Source of the DNA: Paenacidovorax monticola
Lineage (GTDB): Bacteria > Pseudomonadota > Gammaproteobacteria > Burkholderiales > Burkholderiaceae_C
Assembly: GCF_014489595.1 (NCBI RefSeq)
Contig: NZ_CP060790.1
Location: 1,302,001 to 1,366,000 of the forward strand
Direction: 5' to 3'
DNA: 64,000 bases
The translations under genes were made by a program, and so were the position numbers. Below, piece after piece: positions 22,258 to 43,956 of this stretch. The notes below the pieces were generated by a model. That model saw only the letters and a list, made by a program, of their open reading frames with translations, searched no databases and was not told the DNA's origin. Numbering within the stretch: the stretch's first letter is position 1; each line of letters starts with the position of its first letter.

Positions 22258-23167
22258 TCAGCGGGCGCCGGCCAGGGCGGGCGTGGGCCGCTCGGGCGGC
22301 AGCTCGGCAGCGGCCTTGCGGTCCTGCTCCGCGCGCCATTCGGCGATCGACTTGATGACCAGGGTGACCAGGGCCAGCAGCGCCAGCAGCGAGGCCGCCG
22401 CGAACGCCGCGACCGACTGGTACTCGTTGTAGAGGATCTCGACGTGCAGCGGAATGGTGTTGGTCTGCCCCGGATGTGGCCCGACACCACCGACACGGCG
22501 CCGAACTCGCCCATGGCGCGCGCGTTGCACAGGATCACGCCATACAGCAGGCCCCACTTGATGTTGGGCAGCGTCACATGCCAGAAGGTCTGCCAGCCCG
22601 AGGCGCCAAGCACGATGGCGGCCTGCTCCTCGTCGTTGCCCTGCGCCTGCATGAGCGGGATCAGTTCGCGCGCGATGAACGGGAAGGTGACGAACACCGT
22701 GGCCAGCACGATGCCGGGCACCGCGAAGATGATCTTGATGTCGTGCGCCTGCAGCCAGGGCCCCAGCCAGCCGTTGGCGCCAAACATGAGCACGTAGATC
22801 AGGCCCGCCACCACGGGCGAGACGGAGAACGGCAGGTCCACGAGCGTGGTCAGGAAGGCCTTGCCGCGGAACTCGTACTTGGCGATGGCCCAGGCCGCCG
22901 CGACGCCGAACACGAGGTTCAGCGGCACGGCGATCAGGGCCGTGACGAGCGTGAGCCGGATCGCGGCCCAGGCATCGGGCTCGCGCAGGCCGGCCAGGTA
23001 GGCCCCCAGCCCTTGCGCAGCGCCTCGGTGAACACGGCCGCCAGCGGCAGCACGAGGAACAGCAGCAGGAACGCGAGCGCGAGCGTGATCAGCGTCCACT
23101 TGACCCACGGGGCCTCGGTGGTGCCGGCCTGGGCGCGCCGCACGGTGCGGGTCGTCGTCGAACTCAT
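22258..23167 (-). CDS. cysW: Sulfate ABC transporter permease CysW (two apparent frameshifts)
   Basis: Membrane permease of about 303 residues after repair. The EAA loop ([22 protein letters not shown]) contacts CysA. Frame breaks at 23010-23012 and 22468-22471 are each repaired by one base in a C run (plus strand); the second restores [17 protein letters not shown], strongly conserved in CysW. The start overlaps the cysT stop (ATGA). Confidence 0.92.
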
Positions 23168-34807: not shown

Positions 34808-36627
34808 TCAGCCCGCGCGGCGCTGGGCGGCCAGGCGCCGCACCACGTCCAGCAGCCGGTCGACCTCGTCGAAGGTGTTGTAGAACGCGAGCGAAGGCCG
34901 CACCGTGGTCTCCACGCCGAAGCGGCGCAGGATGGGCTGGGCGCAGTGGTGGCCCGTGCGCACGGCAATGCCCTCCTCGTTCAGCGCACGGCCCACCTCC
35001 TCGGTCGAGTAGCCGGACAGCACGAACGACATCACGCTGGCCTTGTCGGCGGCGGTGCCGATGAGCCGCACGCCGGGAACCCCGCCCAGGTGCTGCATGC
35101 CGTAGGCCAGCAGCTCGTGCTCGTAGCGCGCGATGGCCTCAATGCCGATGCGGTTCACGTAGTCGATCGCCGCGCCCAGGCCCACCGCATCGGCGATGTT
35201 GCCGGTGCCGGCCTCGAACTTGTTCGGGATCGGCTGGAACACGGTCTTCTCGAAGGTCACGTCCGCGATCATGTTGCCGCCGCCCTGCCACGGCGGCATG
35301 TCCTCCAGCACCTCGCGCCGGCCCCAGACCACGCCGATGCCCGTGGGCCCGAAGACCTTGTGGCCCGAGAACACGAAGAAGTCGGCGCCGATGTCCTGCA
35401 CGTCCACACGCATGTGCGAGATGGACTGCGCGCCGTCCACCAGCGCCTTGGCCCCCGCGCGGTGGGCGAGCGCCACGATCTCCTTGACGGGCACCACGGT
35501 GCCCAGCGCGTTGGAGACCTGCGTGACGGCGACCAGCCGGGTGCGGTCGTTCAGCAGCTTCTGGTATTCATCAAGCAGCACTTGGCCGGAGTCGTCCACC
35601 GGGATCACGCGCAGCCTGGCGCCCTTGGCGGCGGCGAGCTGCTGCCAGGGCACGATGTTGGCGTGGTGCTCCAGGTGGCTGACGATGATCTCGTCGCCCT
35701 CGCCGATATGCTGCGCGCCCCAGCTCTTGGCCACGAGGTTGATGGCCTCGGTAGTGCCGCGCACGAAGATCACCTCGTTCACGTCGGGCGCGTTGATGAA
35801 GTCCTTCACGCGCTGGCGCGCGCCCTCGTAGGCATCGGTGGCACGCGCGGCCAGCGCATGCGCCGCGCGGTGGATGTTGGAGTTCTCGTGCGCGTAGAAG
35901 TGGCTGATGCGGTCGATCACCGCCTGCGGCTTGTGCGTGGTGGCCGCGTTGTCGAACCACACGAGCTGGCGGCCGTTCACGCGCTCGGAGAGCACGGGAA
36001 AATCGCGCCGCACGGCATGCACGTCGAATGCCGGGTGCCGGCCCTGGCCCGCCAGGGGCGCCGCGCCGTGCGGCGCCGGCTTGGGGGGCGTGACGTAGCC
36101 GCTGGGCAGCACCACGGCATCGACGAAGTAGAACTTCGGATCGGAGGACGGCACGCCCTGCGGCGCGGCGGGCTGCGCAGGCACGCCCAACACGGCGCTG
36201 CCGATGCGCGGCTCGTAGGCCGGCAGCGTGCTCACCACCGTGTCGGGCAGGCCGTTGGCCGCCGTGGCATGGGGTAGCAGTGCGGGTGCGCGGTGGGTGA
36301 GCGAGAGCAGTTGCGTGGGCGACGCGGGCAGCAGGTTGGCCCCCGGCACCAGGCCCTGGGGAACCGGCGTGCCCGGCACGCCGGGACCGAAGCCCGCAGG
36401 GCTGGCAAGCGGCGAGCCCGGCGGCGCGATGTTGCCCGGCGCCTGCACGCCCGGGGGCTGGCGCCCAGGCCGGGCACGGACGGCGCGGCCGCGGGGAGCG
36501 CGCCGGCCGGCGCCGGGGCCTCGCCCGGCAGCGCCTGGAACAGGGCATTGGCCATGCGCGCGATCACCGCCGGGTCGATGGGGGCCCCGGGCGCGCCGGC
36601 GCCCGTGGAGAGGGAAGCGAGGGTCAT
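34808..36627 (-). CDS. Cysteine desulfurase with N-terminal encapsulin-cargo domain (one apparent frameshift)
   Basis: About 606 residues after repair. Residues about 200-606 are a type II (SufS/CsdA-like) cysteine desulfurase: PLP-binding His in HLEHHANIVPW, Lys in FSGHKVFGPTG near 423, and catalytic Cys in RTGHHCAQPILR near 561. It would release sulfane sulfur from cysteine. The first 200 residues are rich in Pro, Ala and Gly and probably disordered, with a short helix motif IDPAVIARMANALFQALPG at 17-35. This is the arrangement of cargo desulfurases of family 2A encapsulins, where the extension targets the enzyme inside the shell. The break at 36453-36457 (five G) lies in the extension. The shell gene is 16 bases upstream. 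Confidence 0.93.
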
Positions 36628-36643
36628 GGCCGCTCCTCGTGCT

Positions 36644-37575
36644 TCACTTGTAGGTGTCCGGGTAGTCGTGGTACTTGTTGACCTCGACGTCGTCCAGCAC
36701 GGCCAGCGCGTCGCTGGTCAGCACGGCCAGCGAGCAGTACTGCGAGATCAGGTACGAGGCGATGGCGTGGTTGTTGATGCCCATGAAGCGCACCGACAGG
36801 CCCGGACCCTGCTCGCCCGCCAGCCCCGGCTGGAACAGGCCCACCACGCCCTGGCGCTTGTCGCCCACGCGCAGCAGCAGGATCTTGCTCTTGCCGTCTG
36901 CCACCGGCACCTTGTCCGAGGGGATCAGCGGGACGCCGCGCCAGGTGATGAACTGCGAGCCGAACAGGCTCACCGTGGGCGGCGGCGTGCCCCGGCGCGT
37001 GGCCTCGCGGCCGAAGGCGGCGATGGCCACCGGGTGCGCGAGGAAGAACGCGGGCTCCTTCCAGACCTTGGTGAGCAGCTCGTCCAGGTCGTCGGGCGTG
37101 GGCGCGCCCGTGAGGGGAAGATGCGCTGCTCGTCCGCCACCTGCGCAAGCAGGCCGTAGTCGGGGTTGTTGATGAGCTCGCTCTCCTGGTTCTCCTTGAT
37201 GGTCTCGATGGTCAGGCGCAGCTGCTCCTTGATCTGGTCGTGCGGGCTGCTGTAGAGGTCGGACACGCGCGTATGCACGTCGAGGATGGTGCTCACCGCG
37301 TTCAGAAAGTACTCGCGCGGGTGCTCCTCGTAGTCCACGAAGGTGCGCGGCAGCTGGTTCTCCTCCTCCTTGGCGGTGCAGGTGACCTTGATCGCCTCGG
37401 GGTTGCGCACGCGGTTGAGGCGGTAGATGCCCGCCTCCACCGGCACCCACTGCAGCAGGTGCGTGAGCCAGCGCGGGCTGATGGTGGCGAGCTGGGGAAC
37501 GGTCTTGGTGGCGTTGGCTAGTTGCCGCGCGGCGTTGTCGCCCAAAGCGGTCGTGCCGCCCACGGTTGCAGACAT
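36644..37575 (-). CDS. Family 2A encapsulin shell protein, SrpI-like (one apparent frameshift)
   Basis: About 310 residues after repair, HK97-type capsid fold by family. Recognisable SrpI-type parts: an N-terminal arm, ISPRWLTHLLQWVPVEAGIYRLNRV, the segment YEEHPREYFLNAVSTILDVHTRVSDLYSSP reduced to its key EHPREY, HPVAIAAFGREATRRG, and a C-terminal FMGINNHAIASYLISQYCSLAV. There is no cNMP-binding insertion, so it belongs to 2A rather than 2B. It assembles into a closed protein compartment around the cysteine desulfurase encoded next door. The break at 37114-37117 is fixed by one base in a G run and restores IFPLTGAPTPDDLDELL. Confidence 0.93.
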
Positions 37576-37639
37576 GTGAAAACTCCCTTGGGTTGGTGTC
37601 GAAAAACAGGTTCGAGTGTCGAAGCGCGGCCCAGGGCGT

Positions 37640-37909
37640 TCAACATGCTATAGCCGTCAATCGCAGGCCGCGCACCAGGTTGGCCTGGCCGATGACCTCG
37701 CCGCGCGTCACCAGGGCCGAGGGCATCACGCCCAGGGCGCCGGCGAGCTTTTCCACGGTGAGCAGCGAGGCGATGACCGCACCGCGCTCGATCTCTCCCA
37801 CGTAGGAGCGGTTGAGGTCCGAGTGCTCGGCCAGTCGCTCCTGCGACCAGCCCTGGGCCTCGCGCGACTGGCGCACGGCCACGCCGAAGTTGCGGATCAG
37901 TGCCGACAT
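37640..37909 (-). CDS. Small XRE-family regulator inside the encapsulin operon
   Basis: An 89-residue single-domain Cro/CI-type DNA-binding protein: helix-turn-helix at about 20-65 (WSQERLAEHSDLNRSYVGEIERG). No ligand domain. It sits 11 bases after the serine acetyltransferase gene and 64 before the shell gene, in the same direction. It probably regulates this operon; a palindrome in the promoter region (39502-39515) is a possible site. Confidence 0.85.
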   Translation of the reverse strand: MSALIRNFGVAVRQSREAQGWSQERLAEHSDLNRSYVGEIERGAVIASLLTVEKLAGALGVMPSALVTRGEVIGQANLVRGLRLTAIAC

Positions 37910-37920
37910 GGCGCGCCTCC

Positions 37921-38883
37921 TCAGGCCAGCGCGGCGGCCGCGCGCGGCGCGCCGGGCACTGCGTCGTGCGGTTCATCGCGCGACAGGGCCTGGGCGACAT
38001 GGCCGCCGGCCGGCACGTCGCGCGTGAGCCATACGTTGCCGCCGATCACCGCGCCCCGGCCCAGCGTGACGCGGCCCAGGATGGTGGCGCCCGCGTAGAT
38101 GACCACGTCGTCCTCCACCACGGGATGGCGCGGCAGACCCTTCTGCAACTGGCCCTGGGCGTCGGTGGGAAAGCGCTTGGCGCCCAGCGTCACCGCCTGG
38201 TAGATGCGCACGCGCTCGCCGATCACGGCCGTCTCGCCGATCACCACGCCCGTGCCGTGGTCGATGAAGAAGCCCGCGCCGATGCGCGCGCCGGGGTGGA
38301 TGTCGATGCCCGTCTGCGCATGCGCCAGCTCCGCCACGATGCGCGCGAGCAGCGGCAGCCCCAGCGTGTAGAGCCGGTGCGCGAGGCGGTGGTGGATCAT
38401 GGCCAGCACGCCGGGGTAGCACAGCAGCACCTCGTCCACGCTGCGCGCGGCGGGGTCGCCCTGGTAGGCCGCCAGCACATCGCTGTCGAGCAGGCGGCGG
38501 ATGGCGGGCAGCGACGCCGCGAAGGCCTGGGCCGCCGCGCGGGCGCGCTCGTCCAGCGCGCTGCCGCCCGCATCGGGGCCGGGCCGGGGCGTGCCGGCGC
38601 GCTGCACGTAGGCCAACTCCAGGCGGATCTGCGCCAGCAGGGCATGCAGGGCCGCATCGAGCGTATGGCCCACGTAGAAGTCCTCGCTCTCCTGGCGCAG
38701 GTCGGGCGGCCCCAGGCGCATGGGGAACAGCGCGCCCTTGAGCTGCTCGACGGCATGCGCGAGCGCATCGCGCGAGGGGAACTCGCGCCCGCCGGGCTCC
38801 TGCGAGCGGTTGTTGGCCTCGCGCCATTCGCGGCGCGCGGCGTGCAGCGACTGCACGATGGCATCGGTATCGAAAACGGCCAT
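37921..38883 (-). CDS. epsC: Serine O-acetyltransferase (EpsC/CysE-like)
   Basis: A 320-residue enzyme making O-acetylserine, the carbon acceptor for sulfide in cysteine synthesis. An N-terminal helical domain precedes a left-handed beta-helix of hexapeptide repeats (about 200-300: GIDIHPGARIGAGFFIDHGTG, VIYAGATILGRVTLGRGAVIGGN), with the active His in FIDHGTG. The long N-terminal domain is the EpsC form found in family 2A encapsulin operons. It lies between the rhodanese and the XRE gene. Confidence 0.9.
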   Translation of the reverse strand: MAVFDTDAIVQSLHAARREWREANNRSQEPGGREFPSRDALAHAVEQLKGALFPMRLGPPDLRQESEDFYVGHTLDAALHALLAQIRLELAYVQRAGTPRPGPDAGGSALDERARAAAQAFAASLPAIRRLLDSDVLAAYQGDPAARSVDEVLLCYPGVLAMIHHRLAHRLYTLGLPLLARIVAELAHAQTGIDIHPGARIGAGFFIDHGTGVVIGETAVIGERVRIYQAVTLGAKRFPTDAQGQLQKGLPRHPVVEDDVVIYAGATILGRVTLGRGAVIGGNVWLTRDVPAGGHVAQALSRDEPHDAVPGAPRAAAALA

Positions 38884-38899
38884 GGTGTGCCCTCCGCGC

Positions 38900-39391
38900 T
38901 CAGTCCTGCACCCAGGGCAGGCCGTGGAAGCGCCAGCCGTCGCCATGGCCCCGCTGCTGCCGCGCGTCCAGCTCGCCCTCGAAGCCCTCGAGCACGTTGA
39001 AGACATTGGCGATGCCTGCCTTGGCCGCGGCCTCGGCCGCCAGGGCCGAGCGCTTGCCGCTGCGGCACAGCAGCAGCACGGGCGCGCCGGGCCCGGCTTC
39101 GCGGGCCACCAGGGCCTCCAGCTCGCGCAGGAAGCGCGGGTTGCGCGTGAGCGCCGTGCCCGTGGCCCAGGCCACATGCCGGCTGCCGGGTACCTGGCCG
39201 ACGAACTTGCGCTCCTCGCCCGAGCGCACGTCAACGAGCAGGGCCTGCCCTTCGGAGAACAGCGCCCATGCCACGGGCGGCGCGACGCCCCCTGCATGGC
39301 CCAGCCCCTGGGCCTGGGCGCGCTCGCGCGCGGCCCGCAGCTCGGCGGGGAGGTCTTCGGTGGAGGGGGCTTCGGACAGAACGCTGGACAT
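38900..39391 (-). CDS. Rhodanese-like sulfurtransferase, first gene of the encapsulin operon
   Basis: A 163-residue rhodanese with an N-terminal helical extension. The active loop is LLCRSGKRS (Cys near 116). It can carry sulfane sulfur as a persulfide. Rhodaneses are frequent partners of family 2A encapsulins and probably exchange sulfur with the shell-enclosed desulfurase. It precedes the acetyltransferase gene by 16 bases. Confidence 0.9.
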   Translation of the reverse strand: MSSVLSEAPSTEDLPAELRAARERAQAQGLGHAGGVAPPVAWALFSEGQALLVDVRSGEERKFVGQVPGSRHVAWATGTALTRNPRFLRELEALVAREAGPGAPVLLLCRSGKRSALAAEAAAKAGIANVFNVLEGFEGELDARQQRGHGDGWRFHGLPWVQD

Positions 39392-39501
39392 GCAAGGACT
39401 CCTTGGAAGGTGGTGGCCCCAGGCTGCGGAATGCCGCCCATAGCCACCATGCAGCCCACTGTAGGAGCGCCCCGCAGGCACGCCAACGAAGCAAAACGCG
39501 C

Positions 39502-39620: not shown

Positions 39621-40445
39621 TCACTGCAGGAAGGACGGCTTGGCGTAGCCCTGGAAGCGCGTGTCCACCACGGCCTTGTATTCCTTGGAACGATAGGCTT
39701 CCACCAGGTCCCTGGCCCAGGCGCTGTCCTTGTCCTGGGTCTTCACGGCGACCACGTTCAGGTAGTGGTCGGGCGTCTTCTCCAGCGCCACGGCCTCGGT
39801 GAGCTTGAGGCCCGAGGAGATCGCGAAGTTGCCGTTGATGATGGCGTACTCGGAGTCGCCCAGCGAACGGGGCAGTTGCGCGGCCTCCAGCGGGATGAAC
39901 CGGAGCTTGCGCGGGTTCTCGGCCAGGTCCTTCTCGGTGGCGCGCAGCGGATCGATGCCGGGCTTGAGCTTCACGAGCTGGTTCTGCTCCAGCAGCACCA
40001 GGGCACGGGCCAGGTTGCTCGGGTCGTTGGGCAGGGTCACACGGTCGCCCTCCTTGGCTTCGGCCAGGGTCTTGCGGTTCCTGGAGTACACGCCCAGCGG
40101 CGCGATGGGGCCCTGCACCAAGTCCACGATGTCGAGCTTCTGGTCGGCCGCGAACTTCTTGAGGTACACGAGGTGCTGGAAGAAGTTGGCGTCCAGCGAG
40201 CCCTGGGCCAGCGCGAGGTTGGGCTGCACGTAGTCGTTGAATTCGACGAGCTTGACCTTGTAGCCCTTCTTTTCGAGCAGCGGCACGATGCCGTATTTGA
40301 GCTGGTCGATGTTGGAGCCGGCGGTGCCGCCGATCACAAGCTCTTTCTTGGCCTGGGCCTGCGCGGGCAGCGACGCGCCGGCAATGGAGAGGGCCGCCAG
40401 CGACAGGGCCAGGACAGAGCGGCGAAGCAGGGTGGTTTGTTTCAT
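39621..40445 (-). CDS. metQ: MetQ-family substrate-binding protein (paralogue 1)
   Basis: A 274-residue periplasmic protein with a signal peptide ending PAQAQA (no lipobox Cys). NlpA/MetQ pattern: LVIGGTAGSN, VEFNDYVQPNLALAQGSLDANFFQH, LPNDPSNLARALVLLEQ and LPRSLGDSEYAIINGNFA. It differs from paralogues 3 and 4 in lacking [10 protein letters not shown], so its ligand may differ. It closes a metN-metI-metQ operon that points into the encapsulin operon. Confidence 0.9.
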   Translation of the reverse strand: MKQTTLLRRSVLALSLAALSIAGASLPAQAQAKKELVIGGTAGSNIDQLKYGIVPLLEKKGYKVKLVEFNDYVQPNLALAQGSLDANFFQHLVYLKKFAADQKLDIVDLVQGPIAPLGVYSRNRKTLAEAKEGDRVTLPNDPSNLARALVLLEQNQLVKLKPGIDPLRATEKDLAENPRKLRFIPLEAAQLPRSLGDSEYAIINGNFAISSGLKLTEAVALEKTPDHYLNVVAVKTQDKDSAWARDLVEAYRSKEYKAVVDTRFQGYAKPSFLQ

Positions 40446-40486
40446 GGTGTGGTCTCGCGAGGGAACAGTGGAAGAATACGGAGGAA

Positions 40487-41149
40487 TCAGCGCTTGTCGA
40501 GCCGGCGCGCGGCCGTGTTGCCCGCGAACTGGATGATCTGCACCAGCAGCACGAGCAGCGCCACGGTGAGCACCATCACATCGGTCTGGAAGCGGTAGTA
40601 GCCGTAGCGGATGGCCAGGTCGCCGATGCCGCCGCCGCCCACCACGCCCGCGATGGCCGAGTAGGACAGGAAGCTCACGGCCAGCACCGTGAGCGCCAGC
40701 ACCAGGCCCGAGCGTGCCTCGACCACGAGCACGCGCCACACGATCTGCAGCTCGCTCGCACCCATGGCATGGGCGGCCTCGATGACGCCGCGCGGCACCT
40801 CGCGCAGGCACTGGTCCACGAGCCGCGCGAAGTACGGAATCGCCGCGAACGACAGCGGCACGGCCGCGGCCAGCGGGCCGATCGAGGTGCCCGCGATCAC
40901 GCGCGTGAAGGGCACCAGCGCCACCAGCAGGATGATGAACGGGAAGGAGCGCACGGTGTTCACCAGCCAGTTGAGCACCAGGAACGCGGGCCGGTTCTCC
41001 AGCGACTGGCCGGGGCCCAGCAGGAACAGCAGCACGCCCAGCGGCCCGCCGATCACGATGGCGGCCGTGAGGCCGATGCCCAGCATCAGGAAGGTCTGGC
41101 CAATGGCCACCCACAGCTCGGGCAGGATGGAGGAGATGCTTTCAGGCAT
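40487..41149 (-). CDS. metI: Methionine-type ABC transporter permease MetI (first set)
   Basis: A 220-residue permease with five membrane helices and the EAA loop (GVIEAAHAMGASELQIVWRVLVVEA). NTVRSFPFIILLVALVPFTR is the typical MetI segment. The start overlaps the metN stop by 8 bases. Confidence 0.9.
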   Translation of the reverse strand: MPESISSILPELWVAIGQTFLMLGIGLTAAIVIGGPLGVLLFLLGPGQSLENRPAFLVLNWLVNTVRSFPFIILLVALVPFTRVIAGTSIGPLAAAVPLSFAAIPYFARLVDQCLREVPRGVIEAAHAMGASELQIVWRVLVVEARSGLVLALTVLAVSFLSYSAIAGVVGGGGIGDLAIRYGYYRFQTDVMVLTVALLVLLVQIIQFAGNTAARRLDKR

Positions 41150-41978
41150 AGCGCAGGTCGTTGGCGGGTTGGGAGATGGAAGCGGGCGCGCGGGAGCCGC
41201 GCTGGGCCACCAGCGCGTCGATCTCGCGGCCGAGCACGGTGCAGCGCTCGCCGCCGGGCGCGCCCAGTTCGAACTGCTCAGCCAGGCGCCCATGCTCCAG
41301 GATGGCCACGCGGCGGCACAGCGCCTCGACCACGGGCAGCTCGTGCGTCACGATCACGATGGTCACGCCCAGCTGTTCGTTGATGGCGCGCAGCGTCTGC
41401 AGGATGCTGCGCGTGGTCTCGCTGTCGAGCGCCGAAGTGGGCTCGTCGCACAGCAGCACCTGGGGGCGCGGCGCCAGCGCGCGCGCGATGGCCACGCGCT
41501 GCTTCTGGCCGCCCGAGAGCTGCGCGGGGTGGCTGTCGATCTTCTCGCCCAGGCCCACGATGGACAGGCATTCGCGCACGCGGGTGTCTATCTCGGCGCG
41601 CGAGTGGCGGCCGTGGATCTTGAGCGGGAAGGCCACGTTGTCGAACACCGAGGCGTTTTGCAGCAGATTGAACTGCTGGAAGATCATGCCGATGTTCTGC
41701 CGCGCCTCGCGCAGCGCGCGGCGCCCGAGCGTGGTGAGGTCGTGCCCCGCGACGCTCACCCGCCCCGCATCGGGCCGCTCCAGCAGGTTGATGAGGCGCA
41801 GCAGCGTGGACTTGCCCGCGCCGCTCTTGCCCACCAGGCCGAAGATCTCGCCCTGGGGAATGTCGAGCGACAGTGCGTGCACCGCGTCGAACGCCGCTCC
41901 GCCAGGCAGGCGGAACGACTTGCGCACCGCGTCGAGCCGGATCACGGGCGGCGCGGGCTCATGGAGAGGAATGCTCAT
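41142..41978 (-). CDS. metN: Methionine-type ABC transporter ATPase MetN, short form without NIL domain
   Basis: A 278-residue ATPase: Walker A GKSGAGKST, signature LSGGQKQR, Walker B VLLCDEPTSALD. MetN normally carries a C-terminal NIL/ferredoxin-like domain of about 90 residues that binds methionine and shuts the transporter. Here only about 40 residues follow the ATPase core, so this feedback is probably absent. The second set (47247-48314) has the domain. Confidence 0.9.
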   Translation of the reverse strand: MSIPLHEPAPPVIRLDAVRKSFRLPGGAAFDAVHALSLDIPQGEIFGLVGKSGAGKSTLLRLINLLERPDAGRVSVAGHDLTTLGRRALREARQNIGMIFQQFNLLQNASVFDNVAFPLKIHGRHSRAEIDTRVRECLSIVGLGEKIDSHPAQLSGGQKQRVAIARALAPRPQVLLCDEPTSALDSETTRSILQTLRAINEQLGVTIVIVTHELPVVEALCRRVAILEHGRLAEQFELGAPGGERCTVLGREIDALVAQRGSRAPASISQPANDLRYA

Positions 41979-42095
41979 GGAATCGAATCGGCGGCCCGGG
42001 CGAGGATGGCCGCAAGGCGCCCTGGAAAAGGCTCCAGTGTGGCGACGCGCGCGCATGCGCAGAAGGAAGAATTTCAGCGCTGCATATGCGCGATT

Positions 42096-42107
42096 GCTAT
42101 AAGGAAT
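42096..42107. promoter_or_regulatory. GCTATAAGGAAT motif between divergent metN and metQ
   Basis: Lies between the divergent starts of metN (41978) and metQ paralogue 2 (42228). Sequences of the type ATAAGGAAT occur near sulfur-regulated promoters in related bacteria (from memory). Low certainty. Confidence 0.3.
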
Positions 42108-42227
42108 GCAGCAGCCCTGCCAGCACGGACAAGCGCCAAATCAGATACCGATATGCGCAAGCCTTCGTTGGGCGGTGCGCGCGCCGGTGCCACAGTCGCG
42201 CTCCGTTCCACTCTTTGCATGACACCC

Positions 42228-43044
42228 ATGCGCACTGCAATCCCGCACCGCCGCCACCTGCTGGCCCTGGCGGCCTCCGCCCTGCTTGCCGCCCCGTTCG
42301 GCGCCGCCCAGGCCCAGGACAAGAACCGGCTCAAGGTCGGCATCTCGGTCGGCAATGCCGAGCAGATCTTCGAGGTGGTCAAGCGCGTGGCCGCGCGCGA
42401 CGGCCTCACGCTCGACATCGTGGTGTTCAACGACTACCAGCTGCCCAATGCCGCGCTGGCCGCCGGCGACCTGGATGCCAACGCCTTCCAGCACAGCCCT
42501 TCCTGGACAACCAGAACAAGGCGCGCGGCTTCAGGATCGTGCCCGTGGGGCTCACGGTGACGGCGCCGCTGGGCTTCTACTCGCGCAAGATCAAGTCGCT
42601 GGCCGAGCTGCCCGAGGGCGCCACGGTGGGCATCCAGAACGATCCGTCGAACGGCAACCGCGCCCTGCTTTTGCTGCAGCAGGCCGGGCTCATCACGCTC
42701 AAGCCCGAGGCCGTGAAGGCCAACACGGCCACGCCGCTGGATGTGGTGGGCAATCCCAGGCGGCTCAGGCTCGTGCCGCTCGACGCGGCGCAACTGCCGC
42801 GCTCGCTCGACGACCTCGTGATCGCCTCGATCAACAACGACTATGCCGAGAAGGCCGGCCTGTCGCTCGCGCGCGACGCGGTGATCAAGGAGTCGCCGCA
42901 GGGCCCTACGCCAACCTCATCGCCGTGCGCGAGGCCGACAAGGACAAGCCCTGGGCACAGCGCCTGGTGCGCGCCTACCAGTCGCCCGAGGTCAAGGGCT
43001 TCATCGAGTCGAAGTTCAACGGCGCGCTCGTGCCCGCCTTCTGA
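42228..43044 (+). CDS. metQ: MetQ-family substrate-binding protein (paralogue 2, two apparent frameshifts)
   Basis: About 272 residues after repair; signal peptide ends AAQAQ. It has VVFNDYQLPNAALAAGDLDANAFQHSPFLDNQNK and IASINNDYAEKAGL, typical of MetQ; GISVGNAEQIFEVVK replaces the usual GVTAGPH. Breaks at 42497-42499 and 42904-42906 each need one C. It is the only metQ on the plus strand and stands alone, ending in a bidirectional hairpin. An in-frame ATG three codons upstream is an alternative start. Confidence 0.88.
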
Positions 43045-43058
43045 GCTGCCCCAAAGCA

Positions 43059-43100
43059 CAAGAGCCGCAGGCGCCGGGGGCCCGGCGCATGCGGCTCTTG
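43059..43100. terminator. Bidirectional hairpin between two convergent metQ genes
   Basis: Ten-base stem CAAGAGCCGC (43059-43068) with GCGGCTCTTG (43091-43100), extended inward by GC-rich pairing. It lies between converging stop codons; no clear T-run on either strand. Confidence 0.6.
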
Positions 43101-43125
43101 CCATGGCGGCGCGCGCCGGCGGAGG

Positions 43126-43956
43126 TCAGAACGCGGACAGCACCGCGCCCTTGAACTCCACCTCGATGAACTTGCGGATCTCCTCGGAGTGGTAGGCCTT
43201 CACGAGCTTGGCCACCCAGGGCTTGTCCTTGTCGGCCTCGCGCACGGCGATGAGGTTGGCGTAGGGGCTCTTGGCGCTTTCCTGCGCGATGGAGTCGGTC
43301 TTGGGGTTCAGGCCCGCCGAGATCGCGAAGTTGGTGTTGATGGCCGAGGCGTCCAGGTCATCGAGCGAGCGGGCGAGCTGGGCCGCGTCGAGTTCGACGA
43401 ACTTGAGCTTCTTGGGGTTGCTCACCACATCCAGCGGCGTGGCCTTCAGGCCCGCGCCGTCCTTGAGCTTGATGAGGCCTTTGTCCTGCAGCACGAGCAG
43501 CACGCGGCCGCCGTTGGTGGGGTCGTTGGGAATGCCGAACTTGGCGCCCTCCTTCAGGTCTTCGAGCTTCTTGACCTTCTTGGAGTACAGGCCGATCGGG
43601 AAGTTGACCGTGTAGCCCACCGGCACGAGCTTGTAGCCGCGGTCCTTGATCTGCGCGTCGAGGTAGGGCTTGTGCTGGTAGCTGTTGGCGTCCAGGTCGC
43701 CGGCGGCCAGCGCGGCATTGGGCTGCACGTAGTCGCTGAACTCGACGATCTGGATCTTCAGCCCGTCCTTCTCGGCGACCTTTTTCACCTGCTCGAAGAT
43801 CTGGGCGTGCGGGCCGGCCGTCACGCCGATCTTCAGGGGCTTGTCCTGCGCGAGCACGCCGGACGCGAAGCCGGCGGCCAGGGCCAGCGCAAGGGTCGAT
43901 TGGAGCAGGGAACGCTTGTTCACGGGAAATACCTTGTTGACAACGATGTGCGCCAT
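43126..43956 (-). CDS. metQ: MetQ-family substrate-binding protein (paralogue 3)
   Basis: A 276-residue periplasmic protein with signal peptide (LALALAAGFASGVLAQ). Full MetQ pattern: [69 protein letters not shown]. It shares the last about 40 residues closely with paralogue 2 (SPYANLIAVREADKDKPW). Its promoter carries the shared sulfur-type box right before the start, so it is probably transcribed separately from the genes behind it. Confidence 0.92.
   Translation of the reverse strand: MAHIVVNKVFPVNKRSLLQSTLALALAAGFASGVLAQDKPLKIGVTAGPHAQIFEQVKKVAEKDGLKIQIVEFSDYVQPNAALAAGDLDANSYQHKPYLDAQIKDRGYKLVPVGYTVNFPIGLYSKKVKKLEDLKEGAKFGIPNDPTNGGRVLLVLQDKGLIKLKDGAGLKATPLDVVSNPKKLKFVELDAAQLARSLDDLDASAINTNFAISAGLNPKTDSIAQESAKSPYANLIAVREADKDKPWVAKLVKAYHSEEIRKFIEVEFKGAVLSAF

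Follow-up and report, generated by a model that had tools for sequence, protein, structure and literature searches.

A family 2A encapsulin operon of Paenacidovorax monticola and a proposed XRE-operator switch upstream of its shell and cargo genes

A stretch of 64,000 nucleotides of the Paenacidovorax monticola genome (contig NZ_CP060790.1, positions 1,302,001 to 1,366,000; hereafter the window) carries on its minus strand an operon that reads, from 39391 down to 34808, rhodanese, EpsC-type serine acetyltransferase, XRE regulator, encapsulin shell and cysteine desulfurase. The intergenic gaps along it are 16, 11, 64 and 16 bases. A first-pass annotation of this DNA had described these five genes, in this order and with gaps of 11-64 bases, and both coordinates and gaps are confirmed; its naming of the first three genes agrees with the domain models that they match. 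It overlooked that the shell and cargo genes are broken in frame, and it proposed no function for the XRE gene. The features discussed below are as follows.

39431..39450, minus strand: O1, a weak palindrome and proposed second XRE site, downstream of a -10-like TACAGT (39463-39458)
38900..39391, minus strand: rhodanese (sulfurtransferase), 163 aa; PF00581, E 1.5e-12
37921..38883, minus strand: serine O-acetyltransferase (SAT), EpsC type, 320 aa; NF041874, 162 bits against a cut-off of 150
37640..37909, minus strand: XRE-family regulator, 89 aa; PF01381, 1.7e-12
37640..37660, minus strand: O2 element TTGACGGCTATAGCATGTTGA, a candidate operator for XRE that shares bases with the 3' end of the XRE gene; exact copy, conserved in relatives
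37615..37643, minus strand: P2, proposed shell-cargo promoter; -35-like 37643-37638, 17 nt, -10-like GACACT 37620-37615
36644..37575, minus strand: family 2A encapsulin shell gene, frame change at 37109-37120; PF19307 and NF041162, in two frames
34808..36627, minus strand: cysteine desulfurase, the family 2A cargo, extended at its N-terminus; frame change at 36448-36460; NF041166 (910 bits) and PF00266
36544..36564, minus strand: IARMANA, upstream of the frame change, resembling the loading motif LARLANEFFS given in the searched text of PMC8049743
36116..36142, minus strand: DPKFYFVDA, resembling the motif AASPYYFLDG from the same text

The operon was compared with two samples of relatives. 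The named loci (n=80), from Comamonadaceae, Oxalobacteraceae and similar groups, are the top 80 out of at least 571 and thus favour intact, similar shells. All five genes stand in the same order and on the same strand in 73 of them; of the remaining seven, three are cut by a contig end, three have no detected XRE gene and one has no detected SAT gene. The family genome sample consists of 299 genomes, 56 of which have a PF19307 match. One locus, L097, duplicates L033 and was left out of the element, spacer, codon, O1, co-occurrence and XRE-alignment counts, while it is still inside the 85-locus frameshift scan described below and inside the tally of 88 loci made for gene order.

At the XRE-shell junction (window 37660-37640) lies a 21-bp sequence, TTGNNGGCTATAGCNTGTTGA, that abuts a promoter-like array of a -35, 17 nt and a -10-like hexamer. 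This 21-mer, O2, occurs exactly once in the window, and a search of its own genome allowing up to 2 mismatches gives one site; no second exact O2 core was found in that genome, and one further site has 2 mismatches, against 4 such sites for the reversed control. In 37 of the 56 shell genomes O2 precedes the shell, at a distance of 235-344 bases from the shell match. All 16 exact O2 sites in the 299 genomes are upstream of a shell, and the 24 off-target matches there all carry 1-2 mismatches (the reversed control gave 16, counted by hand). A spacer and then a -10-like NACACT follow in 67 of 73 loci, the spacer being 17 nt in 50 and 18 nt in 17, with 6 others; this count used a strict pattern that misses five XRE-bearing variants (L018, L032, L033, L035, L044), later counted under a 3-mismatch rule. 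The XRE-shell gap is enlarged by inserts in L041 (346 nt) and L078 (220 nt), and L041 has a second O2-like core.

The presence of O2 follows that of the XRE gene. Among 126 distinct shells (repeated shells, the window itself, L045, which has no upstream DNA, and L145, which has no shell by BLAST, being set aside), 103 have both XRE and O2, 22 have neither and one is an exception. Expressed by locus, O2 occurs in 103/104 XRE-bearing and 0/22 XRE-lacking loci; the exception, L015, has an XRE gene and the element only in a more diverged form. A set of 57 loci divides in the same way, 37 with both and 20 with neither. On the shell tree (FastTree) the XRE/O2 label changes 6-9 times, and O2 goes with XRE in 6/6 independent pairs, a result obtained in nearly all of 200 pairings. 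In the eight XRE-lacking genomes asked, a set that did not include the genome of L048, no close copy of the XRE gene was found elsewhere (at most 45% identity).

A second candidate site, O1, lies upstream of rhodanese. It was searched for with a matrix built from the left halves only of 76 O2 sites, mirrored, and the resulting palindrome is found in 64 of 77 XRE-bearing loci (0-1 of 100 shuffles) as against 1 of 5 XRE-lacking ones. In fresh loci outside the first scan the corresponding figures are 19/28 and 2/13. At a score of at least 15, there are 53 matches in 15,600 bases upstream of rhodanese and 4 elsewhere in 1,579,250 scanned positions. Judged by eye, O1 stands at or adjoining a -10-like sequence. 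A T-rich word, TTTTATTC, recurs in 44 of 82 regions upstream of rhodanese (shuffles gave at most 7 for any 8-mer) and is probably part of the rhodanese promoter, P1.

Residues R34, Y36, G38, E41 and R42 of the XRE protein are invariant in 105 aligned XREs, and an invariant recognition region fits a conserved operator. Based on these sequence comparisons, it is likely that XRE is a dedicated local regulator binding O1 and O2. The protein would bind the palindrome O1 at P1, and it would bind O2 directly next to the -35 of P2, an internal promoter for shell and cargo. The direction of control is an evenly balanced matter. Because O1 is in a repressor position and O2 in an activator-like position, it is proposed that XRE restrains the rhodanese-SAT-XRE genes and switches on shell and cargo; most likely, in the manner of a small CI-type switch, it would restrain P1 and activate the weak P2. 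Regulators of the lambda CI type are alike in being small helix-turn-helix proteins with an operator at their own promoter and another that adjoins the -35 region of a weak promoter. The present case differs in that there is no lysogeny and apparently one local target operon, in line with the single O2 match in its own genome.

It is also conceivable, though less likely, that XRE lowers shell and cargo by sitting on O2, either as a repressor covering the -35 of P2 or as a roadblock to transcription that reads through from P1. O2 does overlap the -35-like TTGA, which allows for repression of P2, and a -10-like sequence adjoins O1 (by eye). The hexamers of P2, on the other hand, are poor, as expected of an activated promoter, and the centre of O2 would be about at the position where class II activators sit.

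O2 could instead be conserved because it codes for the end of XRE or serves as a signal in RNA, which we consider improbable. It does encode the last XRE residues in 78 of 106 distinct XRE-bearing loci (tails picked by amino acid alone). However, it is conserved yet noncoding where XRE ends earlier, as in Duganella- and Lampropedia-type loci; the codons within it are fixed and rare; and the O2-derived matrix picks up O1 upstream of rhodanese. In the XRE tails the isoleucine codon is ATA in 78/78, the preceding alanine GCT in 67/73 and the cysteine TGT in 63/63, while in the SAT, shell and cargo genes of the operon ATA, GCT and TGT account for 1.9%, 4.7% and 5.4% of the codons used for the respective amino acids. 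The tail counts come from the repeat picked by amino acid; a 61-locus count that had picked loci by the letters ATAG was circular for ATA.

The shell and cargo genes are each interrupted. PF19307 positions 14-115 and 109-253 match different frames in the window shell, and the homology test places a break at about 37110 in 94 of 95 aligned relatives' open reading frames. Across 56 family genomes, PF19307 gives one full-length single-frame match in 54, a weak and partial one in G094 and two frames in this genome. The cargo ATG at 36627 is in a different frame from the open reading frame 36448-34808; the frames change in a C run at 36448-36460, and a codon scan puts the switch at 36459. The homology test shows the cargo break in 1/91 relatives' open reading frames only, and the evidence for the break comes from the frames and the codon scan; in our view the test missed it since the extension varies too much to be aligned. 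The first-pass annotation gave the desulfurase an extension of 200 residues; a length of about 200 is right over both frames, which are not one frame as had been supposed, and the 36448 open reading frame alone lacks the first loading-motif-like stretch.

These frame changes are probably assembly indels, a reading that rests on the density of frame breaks in the window and on a split essential gene. In a codon-usage Viterbi scan the window shows 21 frameshift-like switches in 57,930 coding nucleotides and 85 relative loci show 29 in 1,430,404 nucleotides, or 3.6 versus 0.20 per 10 kb, about 18-fold denser in the window; the training set of the scan was the window plus the 80 named loci, and it applies a mechanical 45-nt rule. 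Further window genes are broken relative to the relatives' open reading frames, at 22470 (3/3), 25590 (7/7) and 27380 (6/6). In this genome the essential dnaE lies in five pieces in successive frames by coordinates (G000:C1:765999-769099) and is whole in 4/4 relatives asked. The stated completeness of the record is 99.11 despite the split dnaE. In the living strain, working copies of shell and cargo would then be present.

That the operon is truly decaying, with shell and cargo as real pseudogenes in the strain, is accordingly to be weighed as a long shot. Both particle-forming proteins are broken, and rpoB and rpoC are intact in this genome, so indels are not everywhere; because of this, a true double break keeps a little of the probability. 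A second dnaE-like gene, shorter-scoring, is also in one frame. Against decay, comparable breaks occur in unrelated window genes and in dnaE, the rhodanese, SAT and XRE frames are open in the window, and both breaks sit in C runs. By the homology test, rhodanese is broken in 0/71 and SAT in 4/82 open reading frames.

Membership of the operon in the family 2A encapsulins with desulfurase cargo, which had been claimed at the outset, is supported by sequence matches. The check called for then, a model search of the shell against encapsulin families, returns PF19307 and NF041162 in two frames; for NF041162 the two shell pieces score 229 and 286 bits, and neither alone reaches the cut-off of 380. 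The cargo model NF041166 is matched with 910 bits against a cut-off of 800. Neither gene is a single open frame in this record. The description of an SrpI-like shell without a cyclic-nucleotide (cNMP)-binding domain thus stands as to family, and a Pfam scan finds no such domain, the mark of family 2B, in either piece; what falls away is the single intact gene. The intact shell of a relative (L011) matches PDB 8t6r (E 3e-164) and SrpI, 6x8m (4.9e-145), over nearly its full length. PDB 8t6r, 'Major membrane protein I', is the closest solved shell. We take it to be the A. baumannii encapsulin, which is said to store crystalline sulfur; a literature search did not turn up support for the latter. 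The rhodanese translation contains a CRSGKR loop, presumably the active-site-like loop of the enzyme. In the called cargo N-termini of relatives, a strict form of motif 1 is found in 49/125 and motif 2 in 102/125, rough figures as starts are partly miscalled (for example in L091). A phage capsid, named earlier as the case that would overturn the reading if encapsulin-type neighbours were missing, is rejected in view of the shell and cargo model matches and of the sulfur-gene neighbours kept in the same order in 73/80 named relatives.

The compartment itself is already known biology, and the operon a known kind of system. In PMC8346489, 1281 family 2A cysteine desulfurase operons are counted, and serine O-acetyltransferase and rhodanese are the most enriched accessory genes. 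Such operons share with the window the shell, desulfurase, rhodanese and serine O-acetyltransferase; the term XRE, in contrast, is absent from the main text of that paper. The Synechococcus elongatus SrpI/CyD system resembles the window, as far as the searched text of PMC8049743 goes, in its shell family, SufS-like desulfurase cargo, disordered extension and two loading motifs, whereas rhodanese, serine acetyltransferase and XRE were not met there as operon partners. By analogy with that S. elongatus work, the shell would close, the cargo would be loaded into it and sulfur would flow in the direction proposed. From family knowledge, the shell protein would assemble into a closed HK97-type particle and a SufS-like cysteine desulfurase would be packaged via its disordered N-terminal extension. 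The desulfurase would strip sulfur from cysteine, the acetyltransferase would feed cysteine synthesis and the rhodanese would take or pass on sulfur.

The operon has further genes on either side. About 140 bases past the desulfurase is an NADPH-dependent FMN reductase (PF03358; 34108-34668, minus strand). Upstream, at 39621-43956, lies an ABC importer, possibly for methionine or another sulfur source, with a permease (PF00528), an ATPase (PF00005) and two NlpA lipoproteins (PF03180) that are intact. An NlpA/MetQ-like lipoprotein gene, named by eye, at 42140-43044 on the plus strand is spread over three frames, its frameshift-like switches falling at 42492 and 42903; a PF03180 gene at 43126-43956 is its neighbour.

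Taken as a whole, the reading of a family 2A operon with assembly-broken shell and cargo and an XRE switch at O1 and O2 appears fairly probable to us. A number of observations weigh against it, in addition to the overlap of O2 with the -35, the intact rpoB and rpoC and the one-frame second dnaE-like gene already given. In most loci O2 shares bases with the 3' end of the XRE gene, which makes joint loss of the two partly mechanical. A promoter scan recognised no consensus promoter at P2. At a score of at least 15 the mirrored matrix has no match in the P2 region, only the left half of O2 fitting it. In 13 of the 77 XRE-bearing loci there is no significant O1, and the O1 of the window is weak (score 6.6, equalled in 1 of 100 shuffles) and far stronger in most XRE-bearing relatives. 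Three loci (L048, L134, L135) keep an O1-like site with XRE undetected; no close XRE was found elsewhere in the genomes of L134 and L135. Finally, knockouts of S. elongatus SrpI and its cargo showed no growth defect, according to PMC8049743.

What looks new is the regulatory variant. A literature search, consisting mostly of listings and partial texts, found no family 2A operon for which an XRE regulator or its operator is described, and the portion of PMC8987985 covered treats XRE and encapsulins in separate sections. Tentatively, and with some doubt, the XRE gene and its own operator-promoter may be regarded as a portable module between SAT and shell that has come or gone several times and makes shell and cargo depend on the build-up of the upstream enzymes. 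As for the genome record, it needs polishing before gene loss is inferred from its sequence. If the proposed switch is true, the compartment would be built only once the sulfur-handling enzymes are in place, and this would be, within the literature searched, the first description of a family 2A encapsulin with a transcription switch of its own. A regulator with defined operators would offer a direct genetic handle on what triggers family 2A sulfur encapsulins and what they are for, and finding what XRE senses would tell when and why the compartment is made.

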